DNA of 46,320 nt from Acidimicrobiaceae bacterium (lineage in GTDB: Bacteria; Actinomycetota; Acidimicrobiia; Acidimicrobiales; Acidimicrobiaceae): contig JABEUN010000066.1 of the NCBI GenBank assembly GCA_013044385.1, positions 1-46,320 of the forward strand, read 5' to 3'. The notes beneath the pieces were generated by a model that made no database searches, was not told the DNA's origin, and saw nothing but the letters and a program-made list of their open reading frames with translations. Shown piece by piece: positions 6,609 through 26,203 of this stretch. How positions within the stretch are numbered: position 1 is the first letter of the stretch; the number at the start of each line of letters is the position of its first letter. The translations under genes were made by a program, and so were the position numbers.

Positions 6609-6637
6609 GTGACGGGGACTTGCATATTGGATACAAT
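6609..6637 (+). promoter_or_regulatory. probable promoter of module 1
   Basis: -35 GTGACG (6609-6614), a 17-base spacer and -10 TACAAT (6632-6637, five of six consensus bases). Start of transcription would be near 6644, giving a leader of about 60 bases before the GTG at 6706. The -10 lies inside the perfect palindrome at 6619-6644, which suggests repression. Confidence 0.5.
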
Positions 6638-6644
6638 ATGCAAG
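6619..6644. promoter_or_regulatory. perfect 11-bp inverted repeat, candidate GntR operator
   Basis: Half-sites CTTGCATATTG (6619-6629) and CAATATGCAAG (6634-6644) are exact reverse complements with the 4-base centre GATA. The core ATTGGATACAAT is one base from the ATTGTATACAAT type of site bound by several FadR/FCD-class GntR regulators. Such a regulator is encoded at 14229 in the same module. It covers the -10 and the predicted transcription start. Confidence 0.6.
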
Positions 6645-6705
6645 TGGTGGCCGGGGAGGCAATTTACCCCGGTGCCGCTTACGACCAATTCAATGGGGGG
6701 TAATT

Positions 6706-8933: not shown

Positions 8934-8967
8934 GGAGTGCCTGCTGGCCCGTTCCAGCAGGCACTCC
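8934..8967 (+). promoter_or_regulatory. 14-bp perfect intercistronic hairpin
   Basis: GGAGTGCCTGCTGG (8934-8947) pairs with its exact complement at 8954-8967 around a 6-base loop. No T tract follows, so it is not a standard terminator. It lies between the two permease cistrons and ends 14 bases before the Shine-Dalgarno sequence of the next gene. Likely roles are mRNA 3'-end protection after processing or tuning of downstream expression. Confidence 0.6.
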
Positions 8968-10074: not shown

Positions 10075-10890
10075 GTGATTGAATCGGAGAAGCTAGCAGA
10101 TGCACCTGTGGAGCGTACGGCCTCTGATGGCGATGGGCGAGTAGTCCTTTCTGCTAGAGATGTAGTGGTGCGATATGGCGGCGTGGTCGCAGTTGACGGT
10201 GTCTCCTTCGACGTAAAAGCGGGAGAGGCGGTTGGACTGATCGGACCTAATGGGGCTGGCAAATCAACCATGCTTGCCTCCTTGGGCGGCCAAGCAAAGG
10301 CTGCAGGAGGATCAATTCTCCTCGACGGTCGTGACGTGACGAAGTTGAGTGCATATAGGCGAGCTCGACTTGGACTTCTTAGGACCTTCCAATCGACGAG
10401 CGAGTTCGGCGATATGACGACTTTTGAGAATCTGGTTACCGCTGGTAACGGATTCAAGGGGGCGAGCTTGACTTCGGTGGTTTTCCATCGAAAGGAGAAC
10501 TCCCGTTCTGATCGAGAGATCGCAGGTCGGGCTTGGGAAATGCTAGAGCGCTTCGATATGACCCACGTTGCCAATGCTTACGCCAAGGAGCTGAGTGGTG
10601 GACAGCGCCGGCTGGTCGAGATTATGCGATGTCTGATGACATCACCAAAGCTACTGCTTTTGGACGAGCCGATGGTCGGAGTGGCACCTCACTTGGTCGA
10701 GAAGCTCGTTGGAGATCTTTGCGCTATCCGTGATGAAGGTATATCAATCATCATCGTAGAGCACGCCCTCGAGGTTGTGCGGGCACTGAGCAATCGTGTC
10801 GTGGTGATGTCCTTTGGCAAAAAGATCGCAGACGCACCATACGACGAGATTGTCAACAATCGAGAGGTGCAAGATGCATACCTCGGCTGA
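10075..10890 (+). CDS. livG: LIV-type ABC importer ATPase, LivG family
   Basis: Cytoplasmic ATPase of the importer. Walker A GPNGAGKST at 57-65, the LivG-type RTFQSTSEF Q-loop, signature LSGGQRRLVEIMR, Walker B LLLLDEP and a switch His in VEHALEVV are all present. The extended C-terminus (GKKIADAPYDEIVNNREVQDAYLG) is that of the LivG group. An N-terminal extension of about 25 residues precedes the usual start and is supported by the GTG at 10075 following AGGGGG; an internal start is possible. It forms a heterodimer with the next gene product. Confidence 0.86.
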   Translation: MIESEKLADAPVERTASDGDGRVVLSARDVVVRYGGVVAVDGVSFDVKAGEAVGLIGPNGAGKSTMLASLGGQAKAAGGSILLDGRDVTKLSAYRRARLGLLRTFQSTSEFGDMTTFENLVTAGNGFKGASLTSVVFHRKENSRSDREIAGRAWEMLERFDMTHVANAYAKELSGGQRRLVEIMRCLMTSPKLLLLDEPMVGVAPHLVEKLVGDLCAIRDEGISIIIVEHALEVVRALSNRVVVMSFGKKIADAPYDEIVNNREVQDAYLG

Positions 10891-14214: not shown

Positions 14215-14230
14215 AAGGAGGGGCCTCCTT
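14215..14230 (+). promoter_or_regulatory. Shine-Dalgarno inside a short palindrome
   Basis: AAGGAGG (14215-14221), two G, and CCTCCTT (14224-14230). The second arm contains the first two bases of the TTG start codon of the GntR gene. GGAGG is 7 bases from the TTG, which supports that start. Pairing, within one RNA or between two, could hide the ribosome site and hold regulator levels down. The loop is too short for all seven pairs to form in one strand. Confidence 0.45.
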
Positions 14231-14894
14231 GTCTGAAGTGAAGTCAGAGGTAGTTCCGCTACTTCTGAATCGGACAACTGCGACAGAGGCGGCGACCGAT
14301 GCGGTGCGGGGTCTCATACTTTCGGGCGCCATACCTCCCGGTTCCCTCATTCGCCAGGATCTCCTGTCGAAGAGGCTGGGTGTGAGTAGGACTCCGCTTC
14401 GTGAGGCGCTTCAGCGACTCACTGTGGAGGGTCTGATTCGACTCGACCATCATCGTGGCGCGGTAGCTGCGGCTCCTTCGATCACTGAACTTCGCGAGAT
14501 CTACGAGCTTCAGGAGATGCTTGAGTGCGTAGCCGCAAGAGATGCTTTGAAGCACTTCACTGACGCTGATCTGGCGGATCTCCGGGATTGTATAGACGAA
14601 TTGTCCCGTGCAGAGACGTCGGTCGAGTGGATCCGGGGAAATCTGGCATTTCATACAACGATGTACCGCATATCCGAAAAGAAGCTCGTCGTCGAGATGA
14701 TCACCCAATTGAGGAATAGGGCGATTCTGTATATAAACATGGTCGCACGCTCGGGTGAAAGCCGGAAGCGAGCAGAAGCCGACCACATTGAGATGGTGGC
14801 GGTTCTGGCCTCCGGTGATGGAGACCGTCTCGAGGAACTCATTCGAAGCCACTTGCGGGCAACGCTCGCATGGGTCGAGTCCATCATTGTTTAG
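14229..14894 (+). CDS. GntR-family transcriptional regulator, FCD/FadR subclass
   Basis: DNA-binding repressor of 221 residues. The N-terminal winged helix shows AATDAVRGLILSGAIPPGS, the QDLLSKRLGVSRTPLREALQRL recognition region and the EGLIRLDHHRGAVVA-like wing (residues about 12-80). The rest is the all-helical FCD ligand domain, with the EIYELQEMLECVAARDA start and His residues that normally bind a metal and a carboxylic-acid ligand. It lies between the ALDH/crotonase genes and the FAH-family gene. It is the natural candidate to bind the palindrome at 6619-6644. The start is TTG at 14229 (see the ribosome-site palindrome). Confidence 0.86.
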   Translation: MSEVKSEVVPLLLNRTTATEAATDAVRGLILSGAIPPGSLIRQDLLSKRLGVSRTPLREALQRLTVEGLIRLDHHRGAVAAAPSITELREIYELQEMLECVAARDALKHFTDADLADLRDCIDELSRAETSVEWIRGNLAFHTTMYRISEKKLVVEMITQLRNRAILYINMVARSGESRKRAEADHIEMVAVLASGDGDRLEELIRSHLRATLAWVESIIV

Positions 14895-14929: not shown

Positions 14930-15781
14930 ATGCGATTAGCAACGTTGACAGACGGCTCGAGTACCGTCATTGCCGTCTGGTCTAAAGATGGCTGGCTCGA
15001 CACCGGCAGGACCGGGTCGACAGAGTTCATCGAGATACTAATTGGGGGCAGGGCCCTCGCCGATGAATATACCAGTGGTGGCAGATTGTTGCCAGCATCT
15101 TTCAAGCCGACGCTGCCTTTTCGTCCAGCGCGGAACGTTATGTGCCTTGGTAAGAACTATGTGGAACATGCGGCGGAGTTCGCCGCCTTCAACAACGATG
15201 TGGATGTAGTTCCTAAGGCGCCGATTGTATTCACGAAGGCGGCAACGTCCCTTTGTGGTGCAACCGATGAGATCCAGGTCGACTCAGCTCTGAGCCATGC
15301 ACTCGACTACGAAACCGAGTTGGCCGTCGTGATTGGTAAGGCGGGACGATCGATCTCTGCGGAGAAGGCGAACGATCACATCGCTGGTTATTCCGTTATC
15401 AATGACATCACCGCTCGAGATCTGCAGAGTAAGCATGCCCAGTGGTTTTTGGCGAAATCGCTACCTGCCGCATCCCCGCTTGGTCCAGTTGTGGTGACGC
15501 CGGACGAGATTGCGCCAAGAGATGAACGAGCGCTGTCCACTTGGGTAAACGGTGAGCTGAGACAGCATGCGTTGTTATCTGAGATGATCACGGGAATCGA
15601 GCAAGCGATCGAGACCATCTCCTCGGTGGTTTCCCTAGAGGTCGGTGACCTCATTGCGATGGGTACACCAAGTGGAGTGGCGGTGAGTTTTGATCCTCCG
15701 AAGTACCTCCTTAATGGCGATCTGGTGATCTCTGAGATCGACGGGATCGGAAGGTTGGAGAACCGTATCTCGATTTCTTAA
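14930..15781 (+). CDS. fumarylacetoacetate hydrolase (FAH)-family enzyme
   Basis: Metal-dependent hydrolase, hydratase or decarboxylase of the FAH family, 283 residues, cytoplasmic. Visible are the CLGKNYVEHAAEF motif with His80, the metal ligands Glu128 and Glu130 in LDYETELAVVIG and Asp159 in INDITARDLQ, and the closing GDLIAMGTPSGVAV. Relatives cleave acylpyruvates, 2-oxo-hept-3-ene-dioate or 2,4-diketo-3-deoxy sugar acids; this sequence alone does not choose. AGGAG precedes the ATG at 14930, 35 bases after the GntR stop, so they are probably co-transcribed. A second family member lies at 20091. Confidence 0.85.
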   Translation: MRLATLTDGSSTVIAVWSKDGWLDTGRTGSTEFIEILIGGRALADEYTSGGRLLPASFKPTLPFRPARNVMCLGKNYVEHAAEFAAFNNDVDVVPKAPIVFTKAATSLCGATDEIQVDSALSHALDYETELAVVIGKAGRSISAEKANDHIAGYSVINDITARDLQSKHAQWFLAKSLPAASPLGPVVVTPDEIAPRDERALSTWVNGELRQHALLSEMITGIEQAIETISSVVSLEVGDLIAMGTPSGVAVSFDPPKYLLNGDLVISEIDGIGRLENRISIS

Positions 15782-16400
15782 CTGTTAACTGATTGAGATT
15801 CCCAAGGAGGGTATTCAGCTGCTTATGTAGCTTCCGTTGGTTAATTGAGGTTGTTGACCTTTGCATTGAGGGCTAATCATGAGCCGGCGGAGGTCCAATG
15901 TCTAGGCATACTCGATCGCCGCAAGGCAGAACAACTTCAACAGGAGAGCCGGTCACAAGTTAGATCTGCTCAGCCCACTGCCGAAGGCGCCCCTACTTCG
16001 GCAGTGGGTCATTCTTTCCGAATGAATCCATCTGTATATGACATGGCTGGATCAGCGGGCCAAGTCCAGCGTCTCTCTTACGCCGACCAACATGAAATAG
16101 CCTTTTTGGGCGGCCGATTTCAGCGCTTTTGGTCATCCGCGCAGACAGAACTTTCGTTGGCAGTTACCTTCAACTGAGAATGTGCGGCAAACTTGGCTGT
16201 ACTGCCTCGGTGAGTCCGATGCTTGGATATTGAGGCATTCAATGGTAACGGTCATCTTTGGTGGCGCGGTTTAAAGTTGAAGTGCTCTAATTGCGGTAGT
16301 GGAAAGAGTATGCAACGGATATGGAGCCATGTTCCGGTTATTCAGCAAATCTGGATCATGATAGCTGTCGAGCTAGATGCTCTAAATGATCTACTCACGT
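15782..16400. other. gene-free stretch between modules 1 and 2
   Basis: About 620 bases with one strong hairpin (15974-16008). An open frame from TTG 15845 begins MRLLTFALRANH and passes GILDRR, which resembles the start of FAH-family proteins, but nothing after residue 30 does. It may be the decayed start of a further FAH-like gene. The rest shows nothing recognisable. Confidence 0.4.
15974..16008 (+). terminator. strong hairpin, probable terminator of module 1
   Basis: CCCACTGCCGAAG (15974-15986) pairs exactly with CTTCGGCAGTGGG (15996-16008) around a 9-base loop, 13 bp in all. TCATTCTTT follows, a weak T-rich run. It stands 193 bases after the FAH gene and before the convergent IclR gene, and could act on both strands. 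Confidence 0.6.
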
Positions 16401-17240
16401 TCAACTTCTGGCTGGACTTCCACCAAGCCGGAGCGAAATGCGTTGTGCTGCCTGCAGTAGGGGCTCCAAGGTAGTCGCGATTAGTCGATCTCCCGAGTAG
16501 TCCGAGCTGGGTACCGCCACATTCACCGCCGCTACTACTGTTCTGCCGCGTTGATAAATCGGTGCAGCTATCGAACTTAGACCTGGAATTGCCTCCTCGT
16601 GCTGGACGAGATAACCGTCGTTTCGAGCTGCCTCGAGCTGGATTCGGAGATCCCCAATGGTTCGTACGGCATTTGGACCCCACCGCCCCGCAAAAGATGA
16701 CTCAGAGATGCATCTTGTTAACTCTTCGTCGCTCATCGACGCGAGGATGACCTTCCCAATTGAACTGAAGACGGCTGGAACCGTGGAACCCTCCCTTATC
16801 CCGGCAGCAAGGAGGCTGTCTGTCCTAGGAACCCGAGCAACGAAGAGGACCTGATCGTTGTAGAGGACTCCTAGATTTACGGTCTCGCCGGTAGTTGCAG
16901 CGAGCTCACGGAGGATCGGAGCCGAACTCTGAACAACGTCAAGCCCCTGGACCGCTGCGAAGCCGAGTGCCAGAACACTGGTTCCAGGGCGAACCATTCC
17001 GTCAACCGTTCTTTCGAGGTACCCCTCCTCCTCTAAGGTAGCGACGAGTCGAAAGGCAGTTGGCATGGGTATTCCGCTCAATTGGACCAAATCTTTCACT
17101 CTCAATGCTGGCCTCTCAGCCGTAAAAAGTGAGAGCAACCTAAGTCCTTTAGACAGAGCCTCCACCCGGTATGACCGTGCTGGCACCTGTGCAGCGGGAG
17201 GTACTTCTCCCTCTGAGGGTTGATCGATTCTGTTACTCAT
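16401..17240 (-). CDS. IclR-family transcriptional regulator
   Basis: 279-residue regulator. Residues about 25-90 are the winged helix (RVEALSKGLRLLSLF, VKDLVQLSGIPMPTAFRLVATLEEEGYLER). The C-terminal domain shows the family's ligand half: VNLGVLYNDQVLFVARV, SSIGKVILASM (usual consensus near TALGKALLA), DGYLVQHEEAIPGLSSIAAPI. IclR proteins usually control adjacent catabolic genes and sense aromatic or small carboxylic acids. It is the last gene of the leftward arm of module 2. It is the best candidate to bind the duplicated palindromes at 19757 and 20047. ATG 17240 has GAAGG 9 bases upstream. Confidence 0.86.
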   Translation of the reverse strand: MSNRIDQPSEGEVPPAAQVPARSYRVEALSKGLRLLSLFTAERPALRVKDLVQLSGIPMPTAFRLVATLEEEGYLERTVDGMVRPGTSVLALGFAAVQGLDVVQSSAPILRELAATTGETVNLGVLYNDQVLFVARVPRTDSLLAAGIREGSTVPAVFSSIGKVILASMSDEELTRCISESSFAGRWGPNAVRTIGDLRIQLEAARNDGYLVQHEEAIPGLSSIAAPIYQRGRTVVAAVNVAVPSSDYSGDRLIATTLEPLLQAAQRISLRLGGSPARS

Positions 17241-17429: not shown

Positions 17430-17984
17430 TTACTCGACACGAAAAATACGAAGTTGCAGTGCGAGCGTCGAGTAGTAGCCTATGAGCGTGAGCAGCTCGA
17501 AGACGATCTCTGGACCAACCTGATCCACCGCAGCTGCGTACTCGTCGTCGGTTAGATCTGCAGCTTGCAGGATTGTCCAAATGGTGTTCAGCATGACCTT
17601 TTCGGTTGGGTCAATCGAATGAAACGATCCGTTTTCGTGGATCGATGCCATTTCGGCTATCGAGACTCCTGCATTGGCGGCTATTGGCTCATGGGCACGT
17701 CGTTCGAAGTCACAGTTCCACCTACTTGCGACCATAAGTATCGCAATCTCGCGCAGACGAGGGGAGAGATTGGATTCATATCGGATAGAGGATCCCAATC
17801 TTTGCAGTCCTAAACCGACTCTTGGTGCAAGCAGCATTGCATTAAAGGGACCTTCTAGGGCTCCGTCCTGACCGACTATTGGAAAGTGCTGCTTTCCATC
17901 GGCTCGTCTGCCGCCGGAAATCTCCCCGTAGAGGGCAAGTTGCTCCTCGTTTAGATCCGACGGAACGTGTCGCTTAAGTCGCAT
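17430..17984 (-). CDS. carboxymuconolactone decarboxylase (CMD)-family protein
   Basis: 184-residue all-helical protein of the CMD/AhpD-like family. The signature region reads LSPRLREIAILMVASRWNCDFERRAHEP: a Glu, a single Cys and a His in the arrangement of the gamma-CMD branch rather than the CxxC of peroxidase-type AhpD. It may thus be a decarboxylase or lactone-handling enzyme, but many such proteins have no known function. It is the third gene of the leftward arm, after two SDR genes, with a 10-bp intercistronic hairpin just before it. Confidence 0.78.
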   Translation of the reverse strand: MRLKRHVPSDLNEEQLALYGEISGGRRADGKQHFPIVGQDGALEGPFNAMLLAPRVGLGLQRLGSSIRYESNLSPRLREIAILMVASRWNCDFERRAHEPIAANAGVSIAEMASIHENGSFHSIDPTEKVMLNTIWTILQAADLTDDEYAAAVDQVGPEIVFELLTLIGYYSTLALQLRIFRVE

Positions 17985-18082: not shown

Positions 18083-18898
18083 TTAGGCGCCGATCATGCT
18101 GTAGCCCCCGTCGCACATGATAAAGTTCCCGGTCATATGTGACGCATCATCTGTTGCCAACCAGAGTGCCGCCGCTGCTAGCTCCTCTGGTTTTGGGATT
18201 CGACCCATCGGCGTCTGCGATATCACCCGCTCACGCCTGCCACTGTTCCAGTCTTCACGGGAAAGGGTAGATTCGGTCTCCATGAAGCCGGGGCCAAATG
18301 CATTGACTCGCACAGTAGGAGCAAAGGCGTAGGAGTATGACTTGGTGAGTCCGATTATTCCGTACTTTCCCGCAGCATACTGGGGCGCCCTGGGGCTCCC
18401 CCGGACCACAACCGTCGATGCTATGTTGACGATTGCTCCTCGTCCACGCTTTAACATCCGCTCGCCATTCTCGTGGATCATCAGCATGGTCCCTTTGATA
18501 TCGACAGCGAGTACCCGGTCTATCACTTCCTCCTTGATCTCGCGCCATGACATCTGATCCGTTGCTATGTCACCCACATTGTTTATGAGCGCATCAAGTC
18601 CGTCGGTCTGCTCCCAGACGTTCTGGACCATCGCTTTGATCTGATCCCAGCTCTTGAGGTCTGCCCTTACAACAAGAGCCTCTCTCCCATACGACTCGAC
18701 GAGTCTGGCTGTCTGGTGGGCTCCGGCTTCTGAGGAGTTGTAGTGAATGACGACATTAGCCCCTTCTGCAGCCGCCCGCTCAGCTAAGGTTGCGCCGAAT
18801 CCAGTGCCGGCACCGGTAACCATGACCCATTTCCCGGCGAATCTTGGGAAGACCTCCTGTGGGAATTTTGTCCTTCTCAAATCTTCATTCGTGCCCAT
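18083..18898 (-). CDS. short-chain dehydrogenase/reductase (SDR)
   Basis: Classical SDR, 271 residues, NAD(P)-dependent oxidoreductase of a hydroxy or oxo group. Cofactor motif TGAGTGFG at 28-35, NNVG at 106-109, catalytic Ser161 (NIAST), Tyr174 and Lys178 (YAAGK), and the C-terminal GNFIMCDGGYSMIGA expected in the family. AAAGGAG lies just before the ATG on the minus strand. It is second in the leftward arm, 67 bases after the other SDR. Two different SDRs side by side suggest successive oxidations or epimerisation of one substrate. Confidence 0.85.
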   Translation of the reverse strand: MGTNEDLRRTKFPQEVFPRFAGKWVMVTGAGTGFGATLAERAAAEGANVVIHYNSSEAGAHQTARLVESYGREALVVRADLKSWDQIKAMVQNVWEQTDGLDALINNVGDIATDQMSWREIKEEVIDRVLAVDIKGTMLMIHENGERMLKRGRGAIVNIASTVVVRGSPRAPQYAAGKYGIIGLTKSYSYAFAPTVRVNAFGPGFMETESTLSREDWNSGRRERVISQTPMGRIPKPEELAAAALWLATDDASHMTGNFIMCDGGYSMIGA

Positions 18899-18965: not shown

Positions 18966-19736
18966 TCAGACCAGAGTTCTTCCACCATCGATATATAGGA
19001 CTTGTCCCGTGATAAAACTTGAATGTGGGGATGCGAGAAACAGAACTGGACCAGTCAGCTCCTGTGGTACTCCGAGCCTCCCCATAGGGACAAGAGAGGT
19101 GAGTCTCTGTCTATTCTCCTCCTTTTCGAGGTAACCAATAGTCAGTTCTGTCTCGATGTACCCTGGTGCAATTGCATTCAGGGTCACTCCATCATTGGCC
19201 CATTCCCTTGCCATTACGCGCATCATCTGGTTTAGGCCGGCTTTCGTGGCGGCGTAAGGAGCATGGTCGGGATGCGCTAGCTGACTAGAGACCGAGGAGA
19301 CGAGAATAATTCGACCTGACCGTCGAGGAACCATGTGCCGACCGGCCGCCTGTGCCAGCCAGAACGCACTATCGAGATTTACCTTGAGGACTTTGAGCCA
19401 CTCGTCCGGCTCGAGTTGTAATGAGGGTTTGCGGATGTTGATGCCTACAGCATGCAAAACTACATCTAATCCACCAAATTCGTCCTCGACTGCATCTACA
19501 GCAGTCTTGACCTGCTCCGGGACCGCCAGGTCGACTTCCCGAAGATAACACTCACTGGTCAGCGAACCACTCGCAGCCCTCAGCTTTTCGGGATTAGCAT
19601 CAAATATCGCAATTCTTGCGCCTACATAGGCGAACGCAGTGGCACACGCTAGGCCGATACCACCTGCTCCAGCTATCAAGACTCGGGCTCCGTCCAGGCC
19701 GAGCCATTGCCCTGGACGATCTGTGGATGAATACAC
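18966..19736 (-). CDS. short-chain dehydrogenase/reductase (SDR), first gene of the leftward arm
   Basis: Classical SDR of 256 residues. Cofactor loop AGAGGIGLA at 22-30, Asp46 at the end of beta2 (points to NAD), Asn120, Ser148, Tyr161 and Lys165 (YAATK). The usual NNAG segment is HAVG (95-98), an uncommon variant. The end, GQVLYIDGGRTLV, is typical. The GTG start at 19736 is 13 bases from GGAGG, a long spacing; a slightly later start is possible. It is transcribed from the promoter at 19786-19814, with the palindrome at 19757-19781 in the leader. Confidence 0.84.
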   Translation of the reverse strand: MYSSTDRPGQWLGLDGARVLIAGAGGIGLACATAFAYVGARIAIFDANPEKLRAASGSLTSECYLREVDLAVPEQVKTAVDAVEDEFGGLDVVLHAVGINIRKPSLQLEPDEWLKVLKVNLDSAFWLAQAAGRHMVPRRSGRIILVSSVSSQLAHPDHAPYAATKAGLNQMMRVMAREWANDGVTLNAIAPGYIETELTIGYLEKEENRQRLTSLVPMGRLGVPQELTGPVLFLASPHSSFITGQVLYIDGGRTLV

Positions 19737-19756
19737 CGAAGCTATTTCGTCCTCCC

Positions 19757-19781
19757 GTGAGTTTTATTCAGTAAAAGTCAC
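19757..19781. promoter_or_regulatory. palindrome, left copy of the duplicated operator
   Basis: Half-sites GTGAGTTTTA (19757-19766) and TAAAAGTCAC (19772-19781) pair at nine of ten places around a 5-base centre. Read on the minus strand, it and its flank match the right copy at 20047 at most places, for example ACTTTTACTG is identical in both. It overlaps the predicted transcription start of the leftward arm, so binding should repress. Probable ligand of the IclR protein (inference). Confidence 0.65.
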
Positions 19782-19785
19782 TTTC

Positions 19786-19814
19786 ATTATGCACAGTAAG
19801 AGACGTATTGTCAA
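19786..19814 (-). promoter_or_regulatory. promoter of the leftward arm of module 2
   Basis: On the minus strand: a perfect -35 TTGACA (19814-19809), a 17-base spacer and -10 CATAAT (19791-19786). Start near 19779, inside the operator. This is the best sigma-70-type promoter seen in the window. Confidence 0.7.
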
Positions 19815-20005
19815 CCACTGCGATGCGGACTGATCCGACTTTGCTTGCTTGTTGGACCTGTATTTTCGTTCTGGCCCTTTCTGCCACAGAGAAACCGACT
19901 TGGCGGCCGGGTGCTTGATCCTTTCAGTGGTCATACACATTGCGCATTGATATCTGGGTACTCGGCTACTGCGCCAAGTCGCGGAACGAAGATTGCCGTG
20001 CATGC
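19815..20005. other. remainder of the divergent control region of module 2
   Basis: The 354-base gap between the leftward SDR gene and the rightward FAH gene holds two promoters and two operator copies at its ends. The 190 bases between them show no gene and no further copy of the palindrome. Confidence 0.5.
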
Positions 20006-20034
20006 TTGACAGCTAACTAAGGCGCTGCTACGTT
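20006..20034 (+). promoter_or_regulatory. possible promoter of the rightward arm of module 2
   Basis: A perfect -35 TTGACA (20006-20011), a 17-base spacer and a weak -10 TACGTT (20029-20034). Transcription would begin about 20041, just ahead of the operator at 20047. The poor -10 leaves room for another start. Confidence 0.4.
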
Positions 20035-20046
20035 GAAAAGAGTGAA

Positions 20047-20073
20047 AGTTACTTTTACTGGATAAAAGTAACT
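20047..20073. promoter_or_regulatory. palindrome, right copy of the duplicated operator
   Basis: AGTTACTTTTA (20047-20057) and TAAAAGTAACT (20063-20073) are exact reverse complements around the 5-base centre CTGGA. This copy is perfect and has the same spacing as the left copy. It sits 18 bases before the preferred GTG start at 20091, in the leader or initial transcribed region. Confidence 0.7.
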
Positions 20074-20090
20074 GATGTTTGGAGGATGGC

Positions 20091-20963
20091 GTGAAGCTCG
20101 TTACCTTTGATGCAGGAAGGGTTGGCCGGCTGGATGGGGATCAGATCGTGGAGTTTGATTGCCCCGATATGCGTACCTACTTCGAGTTGGCTGGTCGGGT
20201 CAGAGAGAGTGGCGAAGTCGTTCCACTAGCTTCTGCGAGACTAAGGGCGCCAATTGTTCCGAAGAAGTTCTTCCACACTGCCGGCAATTTTCGCGAGCAT
20301 CATGAGGACCTCGTGAGGGTGAACTGGTCCCATCCGGTCAACAAGGGGATCGTTTTCTTCCAGAATGTCGATGCGATCGTGGGTCCCGATGAGCCAGTTG
20401 TCTACCCACCGCAACTAACGAATGAACTCGACTACGAATTAGAGATGGCGATCGTCATTGGTAAGCCGGGGAAGTTTTTCTCTGCTGAGCAGGCCCAGGA
20501 TCACATAGCGGGTTACCTGATATTCAACGACATTACTGCCAGGGATATTCAAAGACGAGAGATGAAGTCGGGAGTCTTCTCATTTTCCAAGGCCATAGAT
20601 ACTTTCTGCCCCATAGGACCATGGATAGTAACAGCCGACGAGGTTGGTGACCCTCATGCCCTGGATATGGAGCTTCGGGTAAACGGCCATGTGAGACAGA
20701 AGTCGAACACTTCGAAGATGTCAGTGTCGATACCTCAACTTGTCGCTTATCATTCTCCTCAGACCTACAGCGCTGGCGACCTTGTGACTACCGGAACCAT
20801 TGCAGGAGTTGCTGCAAGTATGGACGATCCTTTCGCAAACTATCTGAAGCCGGGTGATGTGGTGGAGGCCGAGATTGAGAAGCTCGGAGTTCTCAGATCG
20901 CCGATTGTCTCCTGGTTCGATACCTACGGGGAGGAGCCGCCTTCCGCTGACTCATGGGTCTAA
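20091..20963 (+). CDS. fumarylacetoacetate hydrolase (FAH)-family enzyme
   Basis: Second FAH-family hydrolase, 290 residues. His70/His71 lie in GNFREHHED, the metal ligands Glu116 and Glu118 in LDYELEMAIVIG, and Asp147 in FNDITARDIQ; GDLVTTGTIAGVA follows. Family members cleave a C-C bond of a diketo acid or hydrate/decarboxylate an enol acid. GTG 20091 is preferred (GGAGG five bases upstream); an in-frame TTG at 20079 would read through the ribosome site. First gene of the rightward arm, with a NitT/TauT importer next. It shares its operator with the SDR genes, so the dehydrogenases and this hydrolase probably serve one pathway. Confidence 0.85.
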   Translation: MKLVTFDAGRVGRLDGDQIVEFDCPDMRTYFELAGRVRESGEVVPLASARLRAPIVPKKFFHTAGNFREHHEDLVRVNWSHPVNKGIVFFQNVDAIVGPDEPVVYPPQLTNELDYELEMAIVIGKPGKFFSAEQAQDHIAGYLIFNDITARDIQRREMKSGVFSFSKAIDTFCPIGPWIVTADEVGDPHALDMELRVNGHVRQKSNTSKMSVSIPQLVAYHSPQTYSAGDLVTTGTIAGVAASMDDPFANYLKPGDVVEAEIEKLGVLRSPIVSWFDTYGEEPPSADSWV

Positions 20964-21078
20964 AACATCAGGGGCGTCGCCATAAGGTGAGGCAGGAATC
21001 GAAATTGAATCTCGTAGAAATAGTTGTCTCAGCACCGAACTTCAAGTTTAAATAGCAAATCCAGGGGGAGATTTGAGA

Positions 21079-22101
21079 ATGTCAAAAAGTGTTTTCAGCG
21101 TGAAAAAGGTGAGATTACTCTCGCTAGGTATTACAGCAGCACTGCTTGCAGCCTGTGGGAGCACTGCCTCAAGTAGCTCCTCTACGAGTACAACGGCAGC
21201 CAGCGTCACCTCTACGACGGCAGCGCCGGCAACCGTCAACGTCGGTGTTTTGCCGATTGCCGACGTAGCTCCTCTATACCTAGGTATCAAGCAGGGTTTC
21301 TTCGCAAAGCAGAACCTCACAGTTGTGCCTCACGCACTTCAGGGTGGTGCCGCAGTAGCGAGCGCTGTTGTTGGAGGTTCGCTCGACTTCGGATTCGGCG
21401 CAACGGCCAACCTTATTTTGGCAAGAGCACACAGTTTGCCGCTTCAATTCGTGGCCGAGGGCGACGCAGCCGCAGCCAGCTCTGCCCAGGCGTGGTCCGG
21501 AATTCTGGTGAGTGCGAATAGCGGAATTACATCGATCAAAGACTTAGCGGGCAAGACCATTGCTGCAAATGCCCTCCAGGGTGAGAACGAATTGGCGCTC
21601 GACAGCCTCCTGCTAAAGAATGGTGTAAACCCATCTTCAGTGCACGTTGTCGCTCTACCTTTCCCGACGATGCCCGCTGCACTTAGTGCTGGTCAGGTGC
21701 AAGCCGTCACCGAAGTGGAACCTTTTGTTTCAGCGATTAAGGCACACGGCGGTACCCTGTTGTCGCCGCTTTTTGAGGGCATGTTGCCCAGCATGCTTGT
21801 TGCTGGTTATTTCACTACCACGAACGAGATTGCGAGTAATCCTGGCCTGGTCAAGAGGTTTGTCACTGCGATGAACGAGTCGCTCGACTACGCAGCTGCC
21901 AATCCGGCTGCTGTCAGACTGATCATTCCAACTTACACGAGCATTCCCGCTGCAGTCGCAAGCGCTATGACGCTCCCGGTTTGGGGTTCAACACTCGATA
22001 CAAGCAGCGTTCAGGCCCAGGAGAGCCTGATGAAGCAACTGGGCTGGATAACCTCCGACGTAGCTTTGAGCAATTTAGTCTGGTCGGGGGCAAAGCAGTA
22101 A
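21079..22101 (+). CDS. NitT/TauT-type ABC importer substrate-binding lipoprotein
   Basis: Solute-binding protein of the SsuA/TauA/NMT1 family. Signal peptide with lipobox LAAC, Cys26, then a Ser/Thr/Ala linker. The mature part has the family's VGVLPIADVAPLYLGIKQGFFAKQNL opening, GSLDFGFGATANL and AGKTIAANALQG. Ligands of the family include sulfonates, taurine, nitrate, pyrimidines and aromatic acids such as phthalate. GGGGGAG stands 8 bases before ATG 21079; a TTG at 21073 is in frame but too near. First of four transporter genes in tight order. A carboxylate is likelier than a sulfonate here because no monooxygenase or sulfatase is near. Confidence 0.84.
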   Translation: MSKSVFSVKKVRLLSLGITAALLAACGSTASSSSSTSTTAASVTSTTAAPATVNVGVLPIADVAPLYLGIKQGFFAKQNLTVVPHALQGGAAVASAVVGGSLDFGFGATANLILARAHSLPLQFVAEGDAAAASSAQAWSGILVSANSGITSIKDLAGKTIAANALQGENELALDSLLLKNGVNPSSVHVVALPFPTMPAALSAGQVQAVTEVEPFVSAIKAHGGTLLSPLFEGMLPSMLVAGYFTTTNEIASNPGLVKRFVTAMNESLDYAAANPAAVRLIIPTYTSIPAAVASAMTLPVWGSTLDTSSVQAQESLMKQLGWITSDVALSNLVWSGAKQ

Positions 22102-22122: not shown

Positions 22123-22983
22123 GTGACGGAACTGGAGGAGTTGTTGACTGGCCCAATTGGATCGCGTTCTTCGAGTTCGAGCAGAACGGGGTCGCGATCC
22201 ACGGGGGGCCTAGACAATCCTGCCGCAAGGATTATGTTTCGCCGGGTCGGTGGTGTTGTATGCGCGTTGCTGATTTGGGAGCTGTTCAGTGAGACTGGCG
22301 TAATCAACAAAAGTGCGCTGCCGACCCCACAGGCGACAGCAGTTGCGTTCGTACACAACCTGTCAGGCCTTGGTCGGGGAGCCTTGGGCACCCTTGACGC
22401 TTGGGGACTAGGACTACTGGCGGCCAGTGTTTTTGGTGTGGCTATCGGTGTCGTCGTTGGTCGATCGAGGGTCGCCGACTCACTTACTGAGACCCTGGTC
22501 AGAATGATGCGTCCTCTGCCTTCTTTGGCACTTATCCCTATTGCTATTCTCATAGCCGGCCTTGGCCTGAAGATGACGGCTGGGCTCGTCTCATTCGCTG
22601 CGTTCTGGCCGATCTTCATCAACACCAGAGTTGGAGTCCGACAGATCGACAACCTGATTCTTGAGACTGGAAGGATGTTGGGGATGGGGCGATTGGAGCT
22701 GATCCGAAAAGTCGTTATTCCAGCTGCACTTCCGATGATCGCCACAGGAGTGCAAGTGGCGATCAGCCTCGCCCTGGTTGTCACGGTATCTGTTGAACTC
22801 GTTGGTGGTACGGGTGGGCTAGGCCAGTTCGTTTTGGTCGCGCAACAAGGTGGTGCAACTGCAACCATGTATGCGGGAATAATCCTAGGAGGAATGCTGG
22901 GGTGGGCATTGTCGATGGGATATAGCCGAATCGTAGATCACTGGATTCCGTGGAGGAGTAGAGGTCAGGTGACGACGTCTTGA
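22123..22983 (+). CDS. NitT/TauT-type ABC importer permease (SsuC/TauC family)
   Basis: Inner-membrane permease, 286 residues, about six helices in a BPD_transp_1 fold. The cytoplasmic EAA-type coupling loop is seen in GMGRLELIRKVVIPAALPMI. The first 35 residues are polar and serine-rich (GSRSSSSSRTGSRS) and precede the membrane part, unusual for the family but possibly only a loose N-terminus. The GTG start is 21 bases after the binding protein gene. Its stop overlaps the next start. Two distinct permease genes suggest a heterodimeric channel; most family systems use one. Confidence 0.82.
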   Translation: MTELEELLTGPIGSRSSSSSRTGSRSTGGLDNPAARIMFRRVGGVVCALLIWELFSETGVINKSALPTPQATAVAFVHNLSGLGRGALGTLDAWGLGLLAASVFGVAIGVVVGRSRVADSLTETLVRMMRPLPSLALIPIAILIAGLGLKMTAGLVSFAAFWPIFINTRVGVRQIDNLILETGRMLGMGRLELIRKVVIPAALPMIATGVQVAISLALVVTVSVELVGGTGGLGQFVLVAQQGGATATMYAGIILGGMLGWALSMGYSRIVDHWIPWRSRGQVTTS

Positions 22984-23792
22984 CCGCCAGTACTTCAGCG
23001 AGACCTCGGCACCGGAGACTCCGATCATTGTCGACCGTCGCTCTGGGATGGGTTGGAATTCTGATTCTCGCTGCAGCATGGCAAATTCTTGCGATTCTGC
23101 TTCACAAGTCAGTATTTCCGACATTCGTGGCGGCCATAGCTGCCGCCTACCATATTGTCACTGGTCCAGCGCTCCGCACAGATATTCTCCCCTCGGTGGA
23201 GCGAACGGCGGTGGGGTTTCTGATCAGCTCTTTACTGGGGGTTGGAGTTGGAATGCTCGTGGGGCACTACAGAGCAGTCCAGCAGTGGACCGCAACGGTG
23301 ATCGACTTCCTGAGGTCATTACCGACTCCACTCCTAGTACCAGTTGCGATCGTGGTGTTTGGACTCAATGGCAAGATGGTGGTGGCGACGATCATATCAG
23401 CGGCCATCTGGCCGGTCCTCATCAACACTGCTAATGGAACCGCCGAAATAGAGCCAACGATGATGGATACGGCAAATGTATTTGGGCTCAGGGGTCGAAA
23501 GTTATTCCTCAAGGTGATTCTTCCTGCTGCAAGCCCTCAAATATTTGCCGGCCTGAGAATTGCGTTAAGTGTCTCACTAGCCATCATGGTTGTTGCGGAG
23601 ATTCTTGGCGGATCATCGGGAATTGGTTACTACATATCGAATGCACAGCAGTCGTTTGATATCGTCGGCAGCTATGGCGGAGTGATCGTACTTGGTCTCC
23701 TTGGTTGGGTGTTTGACACCTTGTTTCTTGCTTTCGAACGCCGACTGCTCTCGTGGCAGCGGGGAACTGTTGGAGGATTTATCGATGGTTGA
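22980..23792 (+). CDS. NitT/TauT-type ABC importer permease, second subunit
   Basis: 270-residue permease of the same family as the preceding gene. Coupling loop GLRGRKLFLKVILPAASPQIFAG and the helices after it (LRIALSVSLAIMVVAEILGGSSGIGY) are typical. It begins with TTG at 22980, overlapping the previous stop by four bases (TTGA), so translation is likely coupled. Its end overlaps the ATPase start by 8 bases. With the previous gene it probably forms a hetero-dimeric pore. Confidence 0.82.
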   Translation: MTASTSARPRHRRLRSLSTVALGWVGILILAAAWQILAILLHKSVFPTFVAAIAAAYHIVTGPALRTDILPSVERTAVGFLISSLLGVGVGMLVGHYRAVQQWTATVIDFLRSLPTPLLVPVAIVVFGLNGKMVVATIISAAIWPVLINTANGTAEIEPTMMDTANVFGLRGRKLFLKVILPAASPQIFAGLRIALSVSLAIMVVAEILGGSSGIGYYISNAQQSFDIVGSYGGVIVLGLLGWVFDTLFLAFERRLLSWQRGTVGGFIDG

Positions 23793-24588
23793 ACCGGTGC
23801 TAAGCGTCCGGAACCTACAGGTGTCACTGCGGAGTCGCGATGGTTCGGTAAATCAAATTACCAAGGACGTCAGCCTCGATCTGATGCCACATGAATTCGT
23901 AAGCATCGTCGGTCCATCAGGAAGCGGGAAAACCACACTTCTAAGAAGCGCAGCCGGGTTACGCCCACCTTCTGGAGGACAGGTCCTATTCGAAGGAACG
24001 CCAGTTACAGACGTCCCTAAAGGCCTATCAATAGTCTTCCAAGAGTACAACAAAAGCCTATTTCCCTGGTTGTCAGTTGGAAAGAACGTTGCAGTTGGAG
24101 CTCGTGAACTTCCAGTTGATGAAAAGAATCAGAAGGTCTCTGAAGCGCTTGCCCACGTCGGACTAAAGGGATTTGAGAATCGCTACCCATGGGAGCTGTC
24201 AGGGGGTATGCAGCAGAGGGCCGCGTTGGCAAGAGCCATGGTCTCAGATCCAAGTATTCTCCTAATGGATGAGCCATTTGCCTCTGTCGACGCGTTGACG
24301 AGGAATCATCTTGAAGATGTGGTCCTTGCTTTGTGGTCGGAGTCGAAGTTTGCAGTACTGCTCGTTACCCATGATGTAGGTGAGGCGATCTACCTAAGCG
24401 ACAGAGTGCTAGTTCTTTCAGCGAGACCATCAACGGTTCTTGCAGAGGTAAAGATTGATCTGGAGAGACCAAGAAATCAGATTGGTACCCGGAGTCAAGC
24501 AAGATTTGCGGAACTCCATGCTGAGGTACTTGAGAGGGTCGAAGCTGCTGGTCGACTCGCCGTAGGCATCGATGGACATGTCGATTGA
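23785..24588 (+). CDS. NitT/TauT-type ABC importer ATPase
   Basis: Cytoplasmic ATPase of the SsuB/TauB family, 267 residues. Walker A GPSGSGKTT at 43-51, Q-loop in VFQEYNKSLFPWLS (with the LFPW of this family), signature LSGGMQQRAALARAM, Walker B ILLMDEPFASVD and His in VTHDVGEA. ATG 23785 is chosen because GGAGG is 8 bases upstream; the frame is open back to 23692 through the preceding permease gene. It overlaps the ThDP enzyme gene by 17 bases. Confidence 0.86.
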   Translation: MVEPVLSVRNLQVSLRSRDGSVNQITKDVSLDLMPHEFVSIVGPSGSGKTTLLRSAAGLRPPSGGQVLFEGTPVTDVPKGLSIVFQEYNKSLFPWLSVGKNVAVGARELPVDEKNQKVSEALAHVGLKGFENRYPWELSGGMQQRAALARAMVSDPSILLMDEPFASVDALTRNHLEDVVLALWSESKFAVLLVTHDVGEAIYLSDRVLVLSARPSTVLAEVKIDLERPRNQIGTRSQARFAELHAEVLERVEAAGRLAVGIDGHVD

Positions 24589-26203
24589 TGATGTGAGTGC
24601 AGCTAAGTTGACCACAGTCAGGGACGCGTCTTTTGATGTGCTTCGCATGACCGGCATGACCAGGATATTCTCCAATCCTGGATCGACGGAGATTCCGCTA
24701 TTGACAAACTTCCCTGACGAGTTTGACTTCATATTGGGACTGCATGAAGGTTCGGTCGTGGGCATGGCAACCGGCTTTGCGATTGCAACTGGCAGCCCTC
24801 AACTGGTGTTGTTGCACACTAGCGCTGGACTCGGAAATGCCGCTGGAGCGATCGCAACTGCAAGGGTCAACAGGGCACCTTTGGTGGTACTAGTCGGCCA
24901 GCAGGACCGCAGACACTTGGTGAATAGACCGTTCTTAGCAGGCGAATTAACTGGAATGGTGGGAAACTATCCGGTTTGGGAAGGCTTCCCAGTCCTAGCT
25001 AGAGACGTACCGACACTCCTTTTGAGAGCCTGGCACGAAGCAAATTCACGACGTGGTCCAGCTATTTTGATCGTTCCAATGGACGACTGGACAAATTCGG
25101 CGGATCCGCGCGGACTCTCGGCTCCTTCAAATATCGCCATTGGAGATGCCAGATCGTCTGCCGTAACGGAGGTGATCGATCTCCTGAATGGTGCTAGGAA
25201 TCCTGCGATTGTCGTGGGGTCTGACTGCGATAGTCATGTGGCCTGGGATGCGCTGGTTCAGCTAGCGGAACTGCTTCAATGCCCAGTATGGCAGGAGTCT
25301 TTCGGTGCCCGAGCGGGTTTCCCACAGGATCATCGACTTTTTGCCGGCCATATTCCTAGCGACAGGGCTCGAATGAGAAGCGTACTACGCGACAACGACG
25401 TCGTTTTGGTGGTCGGTGCACCTGCTTTTAGACAGTACCAATACCAAGATGGCGGGTTCGTTGCTGAAGGTACAAAGGTTCTGTTAATCACTGACAACCA
25501 GGAACTTGCCATCGAGAGTGTGGCTGAAAGAGCTCTCGTAGGGTCAATACCTGAACTCGTGAGAGCGATGGTCGCCTCATTGAATCGAAGGATCGCAGCC
25601 AGCCCGGTTGAACAGAAGTCGCCTCAAGCCCACGAGAGTTCGGGGGTAAAGCTGGATGTTGATTGGGTATTGCGAAAACTCGCAGAGCGCTTAGATCCGC
25701 GAACAATAGTCGTAGAGGAGTGTCCATCTGCTAGACCGATGTTGCACAGGTATATTTTGGCCAGAAGGCCACTTGGGTTTCTGAGTGCTGCAATGGGAGG
25801 TCTCGGATTCGCAATGCCGGCATCTCTCGGACTAAGAATGGCTGATTCAGCGCGCCCCGTATTGGCAATAGTGGGGGACGGATCTTCCATGTATTCGATA
25901 CAGTCATTATGGAGCGCTGCGAACTATGGAATCGGAGTACTTTTTGTCGTCCTAAACAACGGCCGCTACGAAGTCATGGACAGACTCGCCGAGGCAGCTG
26001 GTTGCAGCAATCCTCCTTGGCCTGCACTTTCGAATCTGGACGTAGCAGGTGTAGCCAGAGGTTTCGGTTGCGGTGCGGAAGTCGTTGAGACCAATGACCA
26101 GCTGATGACTGCCCTAGACAACCTGATACCGACGCTCGCTGAGCGCACGTCACCCTATCTGCTCGAGATTCGAGTGGGCGCAACGACCACCTTTGCTCCG
26201 TGA
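24572..26203 (+). CDS. ThDP-dependent 2-oxo acid decarboxylase, benzoylformate decarboxylase-like
   Basis: ThDP enzyme of 543 residues that matches benzoylformate decarboxylase along its length. Ser38 (SNPGS) and His82 (LLHTSAG) agree with BFD Ser26 and His70, and Glu59 (GLHEG) with the cofactor-activating Glu47. GDGSSMYSIQ with Asn462-463 is the ThDP-Mg site. The second catalytic His of BFD (His281, in FRYHQY) is Tyr289 here (FRQYQY), so substrate or chemistry may differ, for example an aliphatic 2-oxo acid or a carboligase. It overlaps the ATPase gene, closing the rightward arm. ATG 24578 is an alternative start. Confidence 0.8.
   Translation: MDMSIDDVSAAKLTTVRDASFDVLRMTGMTRIFSNPGSTEIPLLTNFPDEFDFILGLHEGSVVGMATGFAIATGSPQLVLLHTSAGLGNAAGAIATARVNRAPLVVLVGQQDRRHLVNRPFLAGELTGMVGNYPVWEGFPVLARDVPTLLLRAWHEANSRRGPAILIVPMDDWTNSADPRGLSAPSNIAIGDARSSAVTEVIDLLNGARNPAIVVGSDCDSHVAWDALVQLAELLQCPVWQESFGARAGFPQDHRLFAGHIPSDRARMRSVLRDNDVVLVVGAPAFRQYQYQDGGFVAEGTKVLLITDNQELAIESVAERALVGSIPELVRAMVASLNRRIAASPVEQKSPQAHESSGVKLDVDWVLRKLAERLDPRTIVVEECPSARPMLHRYILARRPLGFLSAAMGGLGFAMPASLGLRMADSARPVLAIVGDGSSMYSIQSLWSAANYGIGVLFVVLNNGRYEVMDRLAEAAGCSNPPWPALSNLDVAGVARGFGCGAEVVETNDQLMTALDNLIPTLAERTSPYLLEIRVGATTTFAP

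Follow-up and report, generated by a model that had tools for sequence, protein, structure and literature searches.

Two similar inverted repeats lie between the divergent operons of a gene cluster in an Acidimicrobiaceae bacterium, and the question raised by this locus is whether they are operators and, if so, of which regulator. The original prediction, made from the 46,320 nucleotides of contig JABEUN010000066.1 (the whole stretch analysed, here called the window), placed both operons in a single regulon and named the encoded IclR-family protein as a candidate regulator. The genes and sites are collected in Table 1.

Table 1 Coordinates of the cluster genes, promoters and operators in the window
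Feature	Position	Strand	Remarks
IclR-family regulator, proposed binder of both operators	16401-17240	-	HTH_IclR and IclR_C domains
Carboxymuconolactone-decarboxylase-family protein (CMD), left operon	17430-17984	-	
Short-chain dehydrogenase SDR1, left operon	18083-18898	-	
Short-chain dehydrogenase SDR2, first gene of left operon	18966-19736	-	
Left operator, three boxes	19761-19786	-	dyad A centred 19779, dyad B centred 19769
Left operon promoter	19786-19814	-	TTGACA-17-CATAAT
Right operon promoter, probable	20006-20034	+	TTGACA-17-TACGTT
Right operator	20043-20068	+	boxes TGAAAGT 20043-20049, ACTTTTAC 20051-20058, ATAAAAG 20062-20068
Right operator dyads	20050 (A), 20060 (B)	+	positions are dyad centres
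Fumarylacetoacetate-hydrolase-family enzyme (FAH2), first gene of right operon	20091-20963	+	
ABC importer, NMT1/SsuA-like binding protein	21073-22101	+	
ABC importer permeases	22123-23792	+	ORFs 22123-22983 and 22980-23792; family-library scan covered first ORF
ABC importer ATPase	23692-24588	+	true start probably downstream of listed one
ThDP-dependent enzyme, benzoylformate-decarboxylase-like	24572-26203	+	484.2 bits, cut-off 493

None of the ten window proteins scanned reached an NCBIfam cut-off among the best 25 matches per protein. The IclR protein scores above the cut-offs of both its domains, with 55.7 bits against 22 for PF09339 and 122.2 bits against 24 for PF01614. FAH2 probably starts at the GTG at 20091, which has GGAGG ahead of it (20081-20085) and is aligned with the ATG of the relatives; the listed ORF begins with TTG at 20079.

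A matched pair of palindromes

The right copy (20047-20073) reads AGTTACTTTTA-CTGGA-TAAAAGTAACT and is a perfect 11+5+11 palindrome in which all 11 arm pairs match. The left copy (19757-19781) has the opposite orientation and consists of 10-bp arms with one mismatch around a 5-base centre. Read in one sense, both copies contain TGAAAGT.ACTTTTACTG.ATAAAA. The two repeats as originally predicted, together with their shared core and flanking GAAAG, are thus borne out by the sequence.

Long perfect palindromes by themselves are not rare in the window: those with arms of at least 11 are listed nine times, in five places (around 2257, 6619, 8937, 15976 and 20047), and 20 first-order Markov sequences predict 0.15 such entries. 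Nor is the 10-mer ACTTTTACTG enriched when taken by itself: it occurs six times in the genome and its reversed control seven times. The unusual thing is the matched pair, rather than a single palindrome or the 10-mer. Scanning the window for the 27 bases with up to seven arm mismatches gave matches at these two places only, and a search of the whole genome (2,817,353 bases) with two patterns, as suggested in the original prediction, found at up to three mismatches only the same two copies in the divergent region, the reversed controls giving none. The four other window palindromes with perfect arms of at least 11 (2254-2281, 6617-6646, 8936-8965 and 15976-16006) are possibly operators or terminators of other modules.

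Promoters and position of the proposed operators

The near-perfect promoter noted earlier at the left copy agrees with the consensus at 11 of 12 bases and is the sole sigma-70-like match in 19500-20300, where 0.5 matches are expected from shuffles. On the right, where the original prediction named no promoter, TTGACA (20006-20011) is followed after 17 bases by a poor -10 hexamer (3/6), and the -10 letters are poor in several of the 14 divergent regions compared below. In all 14 the operator begins 22 nt after TTGACA at the left promoter and 31-35 nt after it at the right one, and the two operators are separated by 205-305 bases. The left site lies across the expected start point. The operators thus overlie the -10 end, the expected transcription start or the bases transcribed first, a position that suits a repressor.

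Conservation in Acidimicrobiaceae

Conservation of the repeat in related genomes with the same gene order had been proposed as the test of the regulon, and the repeat passes it. All 14 divergent regions compared in Acidimicrobiaceae, that of the window among them, retain both sites; two of these regions (L034 and L042, from G003 and G004) carry identical sites. A 24-letter pattern, itself drawn from the sites of these regions, fits 23 of the 28 sites without mismatch, two with one, one with two and two with three mismatches; these last two lie on the left side of L044 and L045.

Orthologues of the IclR protein were found in 10 of the 60 genomes searched and those of FAH2 in 12 of the 42 family genomes, the own genome being included in both counts. 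At up to two mismatches the motif is present in 13 of the 42 family genomes, which are exactly the 13 with the cluster IclR or FAH2; one of them (G006) has an extra two-mismatch place on a separate contig (C25). At three mismatches 11 of the other 29 genomes also give matches; these number 18, and the reversed control gives 28 there. When 29 sites were made into a sequence-only profile, it reached E values of 0.011 or below in the same 13 genomes only, and its weaker matches (E 0.02 to 1) fall in those 13 and in 10 further genomes.

The gene order SDR2-SDR1-(FAH1)-CMD-IclR facing FAH2-binding protein-permease-permease-ATPase(-ThDP enzyme) is kept where contigs allow. Exceptions are the lack of a match for SDR2 in L044 and L045 and for CMD in L043 and L045, the window, where no FAH1 copy stands between SDR1 and CMD, and L038, where IclR faces FAH1-CMD. 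The other FAH gene of the window (14930-15781) is 36-41% identical to the relatives' FAH copy between SDR1 and CMD, and at this identity that copy seems to have been lost or moved in the window, not shifted to 14930-15781. One genome (G033) has two divergent clusters, on contigs C271 and C218 (L037 and L047), with both operators in each; 4% contamination is listed for it, so the two clusters may stem from two strains.

Three-box architecture of the proposed operators

The conserved unit is 26 bp long, with the consensus TRAAAGTNACTTTYACNNNRTRAAAC, and is larger than the palindrome as first drawn. Its boxes alternate in direction (TRAAAGT - ACTTTYAC - RTRAAAC), and three alternating boxes give two overlapping dyads with a common middle box, the centres of which are 10 bp, or about one helical turn, apart. 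Among 26 distinct sites, 62% of the pairs match in dyad A (TRAAAGT-N-ACTTTYA, axis at column 18) and 61% in dyad B (CTTTYAC-NNN-RTRAAA, axis at column 28), the next best axis being 50% paired. The sites thus have the layout of 15/16-bp and 17-bp dyads with a common middle box that characterizes three-box operators.

The palindrome originally described equals dyad B and to that extent stands; it was incomplete in that the overlapping conserved dyad A was omitted. The stretch 20047-20073 is dyad B lengthened by outer GTAAC letters, which are not common to most relatives. The flanking TGAAAGT is common to them, and the GAAAG noted earlier is part of box 1 and thereby of dyad A.

Right sites of five regions (L032, L033, L034, L035 and L042, from the window's genus relatives and G006) read TAAAAGTGACTTTCAC, with the arms of dyad A swapped. 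The same five sites contain a second copy with two to three mismatches, overlapping on the other strand, as if a fourth box were present.

Comparison with known IclR sites and regulators

The original remark that the sequence resembles no known IclR site does not hold for the layout, which is the published three-box IclR layout (PMC8222616). According to the survey of Suvorova and Gelfand (2021; PMC8222616), IclR motifs fall into two classes, and three-box sites, with one box pair per class, occur in 32 orthologous groups, in line with the earlier cases PcaU, PobR and HmgR. As in the three-box operators described there, the box directions alternate, the middle box is common to both pairs, and the sites lie near promoters of one or two operons adjoining the regulator gene; of the class motifs given in the survey, the 17-bp GTTYCRYW3RYGRAAC appears to fit one pair and the 15-bp TGRAACA-N-TGTTYCA the other. 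In contrast, the letters here are AAAGT/ACTTT where the published sites have AACA/TGTT, and the target genes are others (PMC8222616).

Slid over the 26 sites, the published classes fit best at columns 28 (mean 13.6 of 17) and 18 (mean 10.1 of 15), compared to best-of-offsets means of 10.0 and 8.3 for shuffled sites. Since single shuffles reach 15 and 13, and the right copy of the window fits motif class 1 at 12/17 at column 24 against 11 at the on-axis column 28, it is the agreement of the offsets that counts and not single scores.

The best NCBIfam match of the IclR protein, among the best 25 listed, is to the PcaR/PcaU/PobR family (TIGR02431), with 163.9 bits, and three-box sites are reported for PcaU and PobR (PMC8222616). 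Nevertheless, this score is far under the curated cut-off of 284.75, which places the protein outside the family as defined, and the targets as annotated here are not beta-ketoadipate pathway genes. Scores for the IclR, AllR and KdgR equivalogs are likewise below their cut-offs (99.2/380, 92.3/406 and 90.9/275 bits). The E. coli IclR site as quoted in the survey, TGGAAATNATTTCCA, forms, as dyad A (TRAAAGTNACTTTYA) does, a dyad of 15 bp around a single central base, but it differs in its letters and is given there without a third box (PMC8222616). TtgV (PDB 2xrn/2xro) and PcaU (8eju/8ejv), for which structures are available, are relatives of the IclR protein when compared by sequence alone (E 2.3e-10 and 2.6e-20), neither being the closest, as 2g7u is nearer (5.3e-26). 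Among the literature matches listed for the motif strings, no IclR regulator is named in a title, and the combination of IclR with benzoylformate decarboxylase, FAH and ABC transporter gave no match. The site design is already published and no new kind of mechanism is added; the present finding is that it occurs in a gene cluster found in acid-loving actinobacteria and their distant relatives.

The motif follows the IclR gene in other Actinomycetota

A contig scan with an alignment of nine of the ten IclR orthologues (A1, G033 left out) found 58 loci, and the same genes appear in other orders in Acidiferrimicrobium, Actinomadura, Naasia, Leifsonia, Microbacterium, Demequina and others. A site matrix trained on the 14 regions (17 distinct 26-mers) was applied to 43 loci outside training, with IclR identities of mostly 44-60%. 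From the 49 loci L087-L135, L092 and L131 (training genomes) and L089 (partial IclR, no cluster gene) had been left out, and L133-L135 (IclR 28-30% identical) were used as negatives.

The search upstream of orthologous clusters, which the original prediction had also proposed, gave 34 loci out of the 43 in which the top match lies no more than 300 bases ahead of the match to a cluster gene, against 2.6 expected by area. Five column permutations per locus had a best score of 12.3, which the top score exceeded in 32 of the 43 loci, 25 of these in the zone. The other nine in-zone matches (L098, L100, L104, L107, L110, L111, L113, L116 and L130) are weak, no better than permuted controls, and count by position only. 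The negatives score 2.7-5.8. The top match lies outside the zone in nine loci (L088, L093, L094, L095, L096, L109, L114, L123 and L132): that of L088 (25.8) is past the IclR end near the contig edge, that of L096 (29.8) is 1.5 kb beyond IclR, and L114 has a second match (22.4) between SDR2 and IclR.

The top matches of L093 (18881-18906, score 28.8) and L132 (19652-19677, score 25.7) fall outside the cluster and precede a homologue of window ORF 10075-10890 by about 45 bases, a hint that the regulon may be wider in those genomes.

Proposed regulation and alternative explanations

Comparison of genomes yields the site, its layout and conservation, its link with the IclR gene and its position relative to TTGACA. 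On this basis we consider it probable that both repeats are operators of the IclR protein, by which both divergent operons would be repressed, and we infer binding, repression, oligomeric state, effector and co-transcription as follows. The IclR protein would bind both operators as a dimer or tetramer; since these start at or shortly after the -10, the divergent promoters would both be blocked by the bound protein. It would come off in response to an effector, which is probably either a substrate of the encoded catabolic route or one of its intermediates. If co-transcribed with SDR2-SDR1-CMD, as the gene order suggests, IclR would also limit its own synthesis. The single regulon of the original prediction gains support from the sites in all 14 regions, from the finding that the 13 of 42 genomes with the motif are also those with the cluster, and from the motif travelling with the IclR gene. 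The IclR protein is likewise supported as its regulator by these comparisons, no other regulator following the cluster in the relatives' and distant loci.

It is rather unlikely that the same protein and sites serve activation, or repression on one side and activation on the other. The family does comprise repressors, activators and dual regulators (PMC8222616), the right -10 in the window is weak, and the distance from TTGACA is about 10 bp greater for the right operator than for the left; against this, both operators are placed at the -10 or downstream of it in every one of the 14 regions, a position where a bound protein usually blocks polymerase. A somewhat more doubtful proposal builds on the alternative dimerisation suggested for three-box sites (PMC8222616): the two dyads might be alternative registers of one IclR protein, which without effector would occupy one dyad and block the promoter and with effector would occupy the other, freeing or activating it.

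The sites might instead belong to another factor, with the IclR gene a mere neighbour. Long A+T-rich palindromes are also bound by other transcription-factor families, and a gene for a GntR/FCD protein (14229-14894) lies 5 kb away in the window. This explanation appears very unlikely: the GntR protein has no tblastn match in the loci of 16 relatives and one in 58 distant loci (L099, 33%), and was rejected as the regulator for not being conserved with the cluster. Motif and IclR gene, moreover, stay together across rearrangements, which bears on GntR and not on an unlinked regulator.

RNA hairpins in 5' leaders are more improbable still. The right palindrome lies in the expected FAH2 leader and could form an 11-bp stem, but pair counts over 23 distinct sites reveal no covariation beyond shuffles (dyad B 0.146 vs. 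0.127 shuffled, with 91 of 500 shuffles at least as high; dyad A 0.033 vs. 0.097), the window has no Rfam match at gathering thresholds, and the left site spans the expected start point; the covariation null and the missing Rfam match led us to disfavour this candidate. Chance palindromes, for which the five palindromic places in the window might speak, are a negligible explanation, refuted by the conservation in 14 of 14 regions and by the uniqueness of the pair in the genome.

Possible autoregulation and further targets

The gap before the IclR gene holds no site within five mismatches in the window and the nine relatives' loci containing this gap. Even L038, in which IclR and FAH1-CMD are divergent, lacks one, and self-regulation from that gap is thus unsupported. 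Where IclR faces SDR2 (e.g. L097 and L102), the site sits between them. In 19 Microbacterium, Demequina and related loci (L094-L096, L100, L101, L103-L106, L109-L111, L115-L117, L126 and L128-L130) a dyad-B-like GTTTCAC-NNN-ATGAAAG is found at the CMD-IclR junction near the IclR start. Perhaps it covers the IclR start codon, as a self-regulation site or a coding constraint.

A profile match with E 0.02 lies before a peroxiredoxin gene of the own genome (G000:C9:58207), where a related palindrome with AAAAGTCACTTTCAC follows a TTGACA (L156 3688-3735, corresponding to about 58187-58234 of G000:C9). As a third target this gene was rejected, and its site left out of the regulon, because by eye the site is absent before the orthologues in three same-genus genomes. 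An orthologue was found in three of the four other same-genus genomes searched; the copy of G003 has in-frame stops, and for it the upstream region alone was compared.

Implications

The cluster is an uncharacterised catabolic cluster of acidophilic actinobacteria, the relatives of which include Acidithrix ferrooxidans, and a predicted regulator, operator and regulon can now be proposed for it. The locus offers a clean example of a three-box IclR site, and such a compact and strongly conserved operator pair would make the idea of alternative registers testable. Regulator and operator stay together from Acidimicrobiaceae to Actinomadura and Naasia despite changing gene order.
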